Shown piece after piece: positions 43,760-45,814 of a stretch of DNA of 64,000 nucleotides; within the stretch, counting starts at the first letter, position 1; every line of letters starts with the position of its first letter. A model generated the notes under the pieces. That model ran no database searches. It worked only from the letters and a program-made list of their open reading frames with translations, and was not told the origin of the DNA. A program made the translations under genes and the position numbers. The DNA comes from an uncultured Fretibacterium sp. (lineage in GTDB: Bacteria > Synergistota > Synergistia > Synergistales > Aminobacteriaceae). The stretch covers positions 1 to 64,000 of the forward strand of contig CAMGZM010000004.1 of the NCBI GenBank assembly GCA_946183145.1. Direction: 5' to 3'.

Positions 43760-44488
43760 ATGGCGCGTCAGAAAAAACCTGAAGAGCCGGGACTCTCAGC
43801 ACCGTTTTACATGGGTACATATGGAGACATGGTTACGCTCATACTATGCTTCTTCATATTGTTGTTCGCAATGTCATCGATTGATGCTCAGAAATTCCAG
43901 AAAGCTCTATTGTCATTGCGCGGCTCATTGGGGATTCTCAAAGGCGGAGTAACGACAGAAGAGTCAACTGACCCGAACAGAAGCGGCGAAGTAGGAACGA
44001 GTCCGGGAGCGAGCGAAAGAGTCGAAATTGACACGAGGCATGTTGCGTACACGCTGAATTCTTTCCTTCGTTCTGAGAATTTGACGAGGGATATACAGGT
44101 ATCAATCAACCAGCGGGGAGTCGCCGTATCAATCAGCGATCAGTTTATGTTTTTTCCCGGTAGTGCTGAGTTGAGGCCGGAAGGAAGGCGCGCGCTGTAC
44201 AAAATTTCGGAGCTTGTGAGGGATCGAGTCCCATTTGCGGCGGTTGAGGGACATACTGATTCGGGAGTTTTGCGCGGAGGGCCTTACCGTGATAACTGGG
44301 GGCTGTCGGCCATGAGAGCGGCGGCAGTTGCGAGCTACATGCAGAGTGATGGAGGATTTGACCCCGTGAAACTTCAGGCAACGGGATTCAGTTCAGCGCA
44401 GCCTATAGTACCGAATGACACGAGCGAACACAGAGCCTTGAACAGAAGAGTAGAGATAGTGTTCTTGTCGCAATATCCTAAACGTTAA
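43760..44488 (+). CDS. motB: Flagellar motor stator MotB
   Basis: N-terminal TM with GDMVTLILCFFILLFAMSSID; C-terminal OmpA-like VEGHTDSG...NRRVEIVFL. Confidence 0.95.
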   Translation: MARQKKPEEPGLSAPFYMGTYGDMVTLILCFFILLFAMSSIDAQKFQKALLSLRGSLGILKGGVTTEESTDPNRSGEVGTSPGASERVEIDTRHVAYTLNSFLRSENLTRDIQVSINQRGVAVSISDQFMFFPGSAELRPEGRRALYKISELVRDRVPFAAVEGHTDSGVLRGGPYRDNWGLSAMRAAAVASYMQSDGGFDPVKLQATGFSSAQPIVPNDTSEHRALNRRVEIVFLSQYPKR

Positions 44489-44501: not shown

Positions 44502-44756
44502 ATGCAATTTACAGCTTGTTACACGAAACTTGACGAAACAGGCGGCTATATGGGGCAGCTTTTGGAGTGGCCGAACGTCATAACAGATGGCGAAAACCTT
44601 GAAGAATGCCGTGCATCATTGATTGAAGTCGCGGCTGAGATGGCTGATATTTATGAGGAGGACGGCTTGGAGATACCTAACGTTTCCCTTATAGTTGAGC
44701 CTGTGAATGTGCCAATAAAGAGCAAGAAAGGGTCTGTACTCGCGCATGTCGGTTAA
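44502..44756 (+). CDS. hicB: HicB-family antitoxin
   Basis: YTKLDETGGYMGQLLEWPNVITDGENLEECRASLIEVAAEM; overlaps the hicA start. Confidence 0.8.
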   Translation: MQFTACYTKLDETGGYMGQLLEWPNVITDGENLEECRASLIEVAAEMADIYEEDGLEIPNVSLIVEPVNVPIKSKKGSVLAHVG

Positions 44757-44937
44757 AAGGAGAGATATTATCCAGCACTTCAGAAAGTATGGATTTTTTC
44801 TCAAGCGTGAAGGAGCAAAGCACAGTTTTTACAGCAACGGCAAGGGAATTAATATTCCTATAAAAAGGCATAATGTATTCACTAGGATTCAAGCAAACCA
44901 ACTCTGCAAGGAAGCAGGTATCCCGCAGATATTCTAG
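44746..44937 (+). CDS. hicA: HicA-family toxin (mRNA interferase)
   Basis: MSVKRRDIIQHFRKYGFFLKREGAKHSFYSNGKGINIPIKRHNVF...LCKEAGIPQIF; conserved KHS histidine. Confidence 0.85.
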   Translation: MSVKRRDIIQHFRKYGFFLKREGAKHSFYSNGKGINIPIKRHNVFTRIQANQLCKEAGIPQIF

Positions 44938-44969
44938 GCTGTTCTCATAATTTAAGGAGGAAAAACGGA

Positions 44970-45362
44970 ATGCAATTCACAGCATGTTACACGAAACTTG
45001 AACACGGTTATATGGGAAAATTGTTAGAATGGCCGGGAGTTATTACGGAAGGTGAAGACCTTGACGACTGCCGGGAATCCCTCATAGATGCCGCGGCGGG
45101 GATGGCTCTTGCTTATCGTGATGACGGGCGCGAATTTCCACAGACAAAATTAACTCTTGAAACTCTGTCGATTCCGCTTGAAGATGAATCATTACTTTCA
45201 ACACACGGCGAATATCATGATGTTCTTGCTAATGAGGAAGGAAGCTTCATAACGCTGAAACAAGCTGATGAATTTGATGATTACACGGTGAAAGAACTAT
45301 GCAGGGAAGCAGGTATCCCGGATATATTCCAGACACAAAACAGGGAGGACAATAAAATTTGA
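44970..45362 (+). CDS. Second HicB-like protein fused to a HicA C-terminal remnant
   Basis: N-terminus near-identical to hicB (MQFTACYTKLEHGYMGKLLEWPGVITEGEDLDDCRESLI); C-terminus VKELCREAGIPDIF matches the HicA end NQLCKEAGIPQIF. Confidence 0.8.
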   Translation: MQFTACYTKLEHGYMGKLLEWPGVITEGEDLDDCRESLIDAAAGMALAYRDDGREFPQTKLTLETLSIPLEDESLLSTHGEYHDVLANEEGSFITLKQADEFDDYTVKELCREAGIPDIFQTQNREDNKI

Positions 45363-45814
45363 AGCGCATATTAATTTTTGCAGTAGTAGGACTCGTAATG
45401 TTCGGCGCAGGATTCGGAGGCGGACTCATTCTCGGACGCTCTATGACTCCTGCTGACGACAACCAAATAGGCACAGCAAAAGTCATCCAGAACCCCGGCC
45501 CGGTCGTCTCAATCGGAGAATTTACCAGCAACTTGGCCGGAGCAGGGCGGCACGTAATCAGCTTCGGACTCTCTCTTGAGCTTACCGAAAAGGAAGGAGC
45601 AGCGGCTCTCATTCAGACTCCCGGCTGGCTCATGAGAATACGCAATGAAGTTTTCATGCTCGTTAAAGACAGAGTATATGACGATCTCACAAGCGCAGAA
45701 GGAACGCTCCAATTTGCCGGCGACATAAAACGATCGTTAAACAGAATGCTTCCTGATGTCGGCGGTGAAGCTCCCATAACAAACGTGCTTTTCGAGAGCA
45801 TAGTTTTACAGTAA
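45359..45814 (+). CDS. fliL: Flagellar basal body-associated protein FliL
   Basis: N-terminal TM GLVMFGAGFGGGLILG, FliL domain, upstream of fliM; TTG start overlapping the preceding stop (TTGA). Confidence 0.85.
   Translation: MKRILIFAVVGLVMFGAGFGGGLILGRSMTPADDNQIGTAKVIQNPGPVVSIGEFTSNLAGAGRHVISFGLSLELTEKEGAAALIQTPGWLMRIRNEVFMLVKDRVYDDLTSAEGTLQFAGDIKRSLNRMLPDVGGEAPITNVLFESIVLQ

Follow-up and report, generated by a model that had tools for sequence, protein, structure and literature searches.

Gene content of the motB-fliL junction

The window, i.e. the whole 64,000-nucleotide stretch of DNA analysed here, belongs to a genome of 2.55 Mb in 25 contigs; the named records closest to this genome are MAGs of Synergistaceae from the gut of ruminants (goat, sheep, deer, reindeer). 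It includes a flagellar operon in which three small genes, hicB, hicA and a fusion gene designated hicB', lie between motB and fliL (Table 1). The order motB-hicB-hicA-hicB'-fliL of the original prediction proved exact, and the presence of a HicBA toxin-antitoxin module inside the operon was borne out by the Pfam matches, the 11-nucleotide overlap of hicB and hicA, and the Pfam-confirmed flagellar neighbours (flbD, motA, motB, fliL, fliM, fliN/Y-like, cheY-like, fliP, fliQ, fliR). The operon is otherwise ordinary (flbD-motA-motB ... fliL-fliM-fliN/Y-cheY-fliP-fliQ-fliR), with a motB 95-98% identical to that of the closest relatives; the locus shows that a junction of this kind can accommodate toxin-antitoxin cassettes with the operon left unbroken. 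In the open-access literature searched, no description of a toxin-antitoxin module in a flagellar operon was found.

Table 1 Features of the motB-fliL junction in the window.
Feature	Position	Strand	Evidence or remark
motB, flagellar stator, upstream flank	43760..44488	+	Pfam MotB_plug and OmpA
hicB, intact antitoxin gene (predicted), 84 aa	44502..44756	+	Pfam PF21748, E 3e-7, above cut-off
hicA, intact HicA-type mRNA interferase gene (predicted), 63 aa	44746..44937	+	Pfam PF07927, E 8e-6
hicB', 130-aa HicB joined in frame to an N-terminally truncated, acidic HicA remnant	44970..45362	+	
HicA-derived tail of hicB', residues 75-120	45192..45329	+	Strand 2, strand 3 and helix 2 of the HicA fold
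Read-through end of hicB', QTQNREDNKI	45330..45362	+	Follows the former hicA-type stop position and reaches the fliL Shine-Dalgarno
fliL, downstream flank, TTG start	45359..45814	+	Pfam FliL, E 1e-14

As originally described, hicB (preceded by the Shine-Dalgarno sequence AAGGAGG) starts 13 nucleotides after the end of motB, and the stop of hicB' shares four nucleotides (TTGA) with the TTG start of fliL. The accompanying claim that the module is translationally wired into the motility genes holds for the layout and the tight, operon-like spacing, whereas the fliL overlap appears to be secondary: the hicA-type stop TAG reads CAG in hicB', so that the last ten residues would stem from read-through into the fliL Shine-Dalgarno and the overlap would be a by-product. 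The motif GGGAGG lies ahead of the fliL TTG within this read-through sequence, and a TTG start of fliL is present in 10 of the 42 junctions read in the genus, mostly with GGGAGG or similar upstream. A promoter and terminator scan of the module gave counts not above those of shuffled sequences, so no isolating terminator or internal promoter can be claimed; we infer that the hic genes are co-transcribed with motB and fliL.

The hicB and hicA pair

HicB corresponds to the HicB/UPF0150 partial RNase-H fold (30.6 bits against a UPF0150 (HicB-like) cut-off of 27.3), its profile matches the solved HicB structures 6hpb and 6u0i weakly (E 0.006), and no HTH, RHH or Phd DNA-binding domain was matched in Pfam. 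HicA scores slightly below the HicA_toxin cut-off (26.3 versus 27 bits), and automatic annotation may therefore overlook it. It is 51-75% identical to ten other HicA proteins of the genus, and G23, H26, R41 and H42 do not vary across the 11 sequences, nor does the REGxxH motif; by motif, H26 is the counterpart of the histidine required for toxicity in the HicA proteins studied (PMC3969222, PMC11594946). His24 and Gly22 are required for the toxicity of Burkholderia pseudomallei HicA (PMC3969222), and HicB-type antitoxins block HicA by masking its active-site histidine (PMC11594946). In the window HicB is the evident candidate antidote of HicA, which looks intact; we infer that HicA is toxic and that both HicB and HicB' neutralise it. 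The dN/dS of hicB against its orthologue in G031 is 0.10, and ordinary hicB orthologues range from 0.04 to 0.28 where dS is unsaturated.

From its sequence, the pair appears to be an intact small-HicB Class 2 hicBA module as defined by Gerdes (2024, mBio, PMC10865869), with which it shares the order hicB-hicA, overlapping genes, a HicB within the 63-103 codon range and free of a DNA-binding domain, and a small HicA with a dsRBD-like domain bearing the active-site Gly and His. Unlike the published Class 2 modules, the one in the window belongs to a genus-specific, often toxin-less cassette within a flagellar operon; the main text of Gerdes (2024) does not mention flagella and describes no such setting. 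The window genome has a second, unrelated hicBA-like pair (L129, contig C5, near 83,900-84,300; HicA match of 21.7 bits) outside any flagellar operon.

The hicB' fusion gene

The start of hicB' resembles that of hicB (30 of 32 nucleotides, 94%) and a 3' repeat at 45295-45332 matches the end of hicA (33 of 38 nucleotides, 87%), both as predicted; the alignment given below shows that the repeats are not due to chance. The fusion of a HicB (residues 1-74) with a HicA remnant was likewise upheld, and the remnant is longer than originally thought, spanning 46 residues that include the position of the catalytic histidine and not only the last 14 or so. Residues 75-120 align gaplessly with HicA 18-63 (17 of 46 identical; BLAST E 6e-9; profile-profile probability 97.6%, E 4e-12), and all that the tail lacks is the N-terminal ~17 residues of HicA, which comprise helix 1 and the start or most of strand 1. 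The proposed loss of the catalytic-His region did not occur, as H26 of HicA aligns with H83, which is invariant in six fusion proteins.

The tail retains 5 of the 13 HicA-invariant residues of the shared part: H83 is kept, as is G80 in the window copy, and R41, H42, R47 and N51 are replaced, the RH motif (R41/H42) becoming Q98/A99. The net charge is reversed, from about +6 in HicA 18-63 to about -8 in the tail. With helix 1, the basic surface and the RH motif lost and the tail acidic, the toxin-derived part of HicB' should not be an RNase; the retained histidine could provide some residual HicA-like chemistry or binding. The orthologues of HicB' are 94, 88, 71, 66 and 50% identical to it. A structure model built from 31 sequences (mean pLDDT 76) gave the HicB fold at high confidence, and Foldseek returned the HicB structures 6hpb and 6g1c; an earlier model from six sequences was unusable (pLDDT 38). 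The tail was modelled at moderate confidence as strand-strand-helix, a fold that is not independent evidence given the HicA rows in the alignment. An HTH-like match in the tail (PF24718, E 0.005, 17 bits against a cut-off of 27) was not significant and HicA explains the sequence better.

Like the fused Class 12 hicBA modules (PMC10865869), hicB' encodes a small HicB followed by HicA-derived sequence in a single chain, and clustering in that paper likewise pointed to selection. Class 12 proteins retain the complete HicA dsRBD-like domain (helix 1-strand 1-strand 2-strand 3-helix 2) with the conserved residues, including the catalytic His, and the basic surface, whereas HicB' contains only residues 18-63 of the 63 of HicA, with H83 kept, the RH motif gone and an acidic surface; also unlike Class 12, an intact hicBA can adjoin the fusion. 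The truncated Phd-RelE fusion of Ralstonia eutropha (PMC4826407) similarly joins an antitoxin to a truncated, presumably dead toxin, and whether it is a dead end or functional was left undecided there; hicB' differs in its protein families and in the purifying selection acting across species on both halves.

Distribution and decay of the cassette

The junction was read in 42 cases within the genus (rumen Synergistaceae) and in 16 outside it, a check on related genomes in which motB and fliL were 9-33 nucleotides apart in other genera and 21-1451 nucleotides apart within the genus. On a quick species tree (MotB end, FliL and FliM), the basal species of the genus and the other genera have no hic cassette, while hic DNA is present in 33 of the 36 crown-clade tips; four state changes suffice, most simply one gain in the crown-clade ancestor and three losses. 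The junctions contain hicB alone; hicBA; hicBA-hicBA (G022); hicB-hicBA with a phosphatase gene (G005); hicBA with a broken hicA (G010, G025, G031); hicBA plus the fusion, as in the window; the fusion alone (G030, G002, G039, G012); or the fusion with a PHP-type phosphatase gene (G001, G028). Every fusion examined sits within the flagellar operon. One junction is empty (G015) and another holds a 123-nucleotide remnant (G013).

The cassette decays toxin first, hicA being lost repeatedly and hicB kept. Intact hicB is present in 29 and intact hicA in 12 of the 31 assessable crown tips, a contrast to be taken as descriptive because of the non-independence of the tips; as an argument, the separate lesions weigh more. 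The hicA gene is frameshifted in G010 and G031 and carries a nonsense codon in G025, and separate deletions of 85 (G012), 184 (G021) and 151 nucleotides (G029) each put hicB and the hicA end into one reading frame. As the genomes are mostly draft MAGs, single frameshifts could be assembly errors, the deletions hardly so. Wherever hicA is intact, hicB accompanies it in the junction. Orphan or anti-addiction antitoxins (reviewed in PMC7354431) also outlast their toxins; in contrast to those, the process here is recurrent in one genus, at one site in a conserved flagellar operon, and leaves toxin remnants in frame. This single-site series within one genus (empty site, intact pair, toxin-less antitoxin, antitoxin-toxin fusion) makes it directly testable why antitoxins persist longer than their toxins and whether an antitoxin can take up a dead toxin as one of its domains.

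A close hicBA relative of the subfamily is present in a distant phylum (Syntrophus sp. UBA8958, L160:2821-3229), which points to spread of the cassette by horizontal transfer. A phage or plasmid origin found no support, as tblastn with HicA gave no match in records of either kind. Six genomes (G001, G004, G005, G026, G028, G031; loci L065, L066, L091, L096, L083, L086) have a further gene in the motB-fliL junction, either ahead of the hic genes or following them, which encodes a metal-dependent phosphatase of PHP type (YcdX-like by eye) of ~240 aa; in G026 and G004 this gene has internal deletions. Cassettes of more than one kind seem to use the junction as a hot spot for insertion. G012 (L123, contig C93) and G009 (L124, contig C76) have a second hicBA of the same subfamily, flanked by a hybrid sensor kinase gene and a GGDEF/EAL gene; of hicA in G009 nothing but the first 20 codons is left. 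In G013 (L132, contig C131) hicA precedes the same GGDEF/EAL gene at a contig end. This site, too, lies inside an operon, next to genes for signalling. G007 has two motB-fliL loci (L089 and L090, contigs C56 and C67), one with and one without the cassette, and is probably a mixed bin; otherwise, this would be a duplication.

Selection on hicB' and its possible roles

The fusion of the window is common to G030, G002, G028, G001 and, in part, G003 and G006. Pooled over two independent species pairs (G000, the window genome, with G030; G028 with G001), pN/pS was 0.22 in the HicB part (p 2e-8) and 0.25 in the toxin-derived tail (Fisher p 1.5e-5); dS is saturated in distant pairs and only close pairs entered the test. 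hicB' is a maintained gene and not a fossil, and these values disfavour a mere pseudogene. No other HicA of the same subfamily was found in G030, G002 and G028.

We consider it probable that the locus is a domesticated, toxin-shedding hicBA cassette in a flagellar operon and that HicB' is a maintained non-toxic antitoxin. A compact hicBA would have entered the motB-fliL junction once, in the crown-clade ancestor of the genus; hicA has since been broken or deleted many times and hicB retained, presumably because the toxin is costly and dispensable, and some of the deletions left hicB and the 3' portion of hicA as a single reading frame. Among these fusions, hicB' is old, has passed to several species and evolves under purifying selection in its HicB part and its tail alike. 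HicB would neutralise HicA by covering its active site, and HicB' would bind HicA through its HicB part, its own toxin remnant being inert, thus serving as an additional antitoxin. In the window it could act against the neighbouring HicA, and in fusion-only species (G030, G002, G028) it might guard the cell against hicBA arriving from outside, a role suggested for orphan antitoxins (PMC7354431); an antitoxin role in species without this HicA is conjecture, and a role outside toxin-antitoxin biology fits the selection data equally well. A direct role of the cassette in motility is possible, and nothing demands it, because sister species do without the cassette.

Unlikely, in our judgement, is that HicB' has a new function and is no longer an antitoxin, the acidic HicA remnant being the fixed partner domain of a two-domain protein (an intramolecular plug of the HicB groove, an oligomerisation module or an RNA- or protein-binding module, possibly tuning flagellar gene expression). 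The purifying selection in species without a HicA of the subfamily, the strong and shared charge reversal of the tail and the confinement of all examined fusions to the flagellar operon speak for such a function; however, HicB' has no recognised DNA-binding domain, its HicB part retains ordinary HicB sequence, and it cannot be essential for the motility genes because many sister species have plain hicB or nothing at this site. Unlikely too is a reading in which the charge-reversed, HicA-derived tail itself does the work: what is left of the toxin would have become a lasting regulatory domain within the toxin's own antitoxin, for instance by plugging the toxin-binding groove or by mimicking nucleic acid; if true, flagellated rumen Synergistaceae would have gained a non-toxic, toxin-antitoxin-derived regulator made with, and perhaps acting on, the motor operon.

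We regard pure decay as quite unlikely, i.e. a selfish cassette on its way out with hicB and hicB' as transient remains, kept only for operon spacing or for translation into fliL. The complete loss in G015, the remnant in G013 and the damage to the hicB' orthologue of G006 and to hicB of G041 agree with it, but purifying selection is codon-specific on both fusion halves and on solo hicB, and spacing alone would not conserve amino acids.

Origin of hicB'

The original prediction derived hicB' from a tandem duplication of hicBA followed by deletion of the toxin core; as a recent event in the lineage of the window, affecting the second copy, this is in our view very improbable: the hicB starts and hicA-type ends are similar and the intact hicA closest to the tail is that of the window, but a sister grouping of HicB and HicB' was rejected (p-AU 0.00015), the two fall in different clades, in the sister species G030 the fusion has no adjacent hicBA, and the hicA genes of other species are nearly as close to the 38 nucleotides of the tail (G031, 31/38; G033 and G027, 30/38). 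In sequence identity, HicB' is closer to a HicB from a different species, G033 (71%), than to the adjacent HicB (56%). The duplication may instead be ancient and precede the divergence of the crown clade. The fusion of the window is a separate, older event than the deletions in G012, G021 and G029, and G039 carries the same kind of HicA tail on a different HicB.
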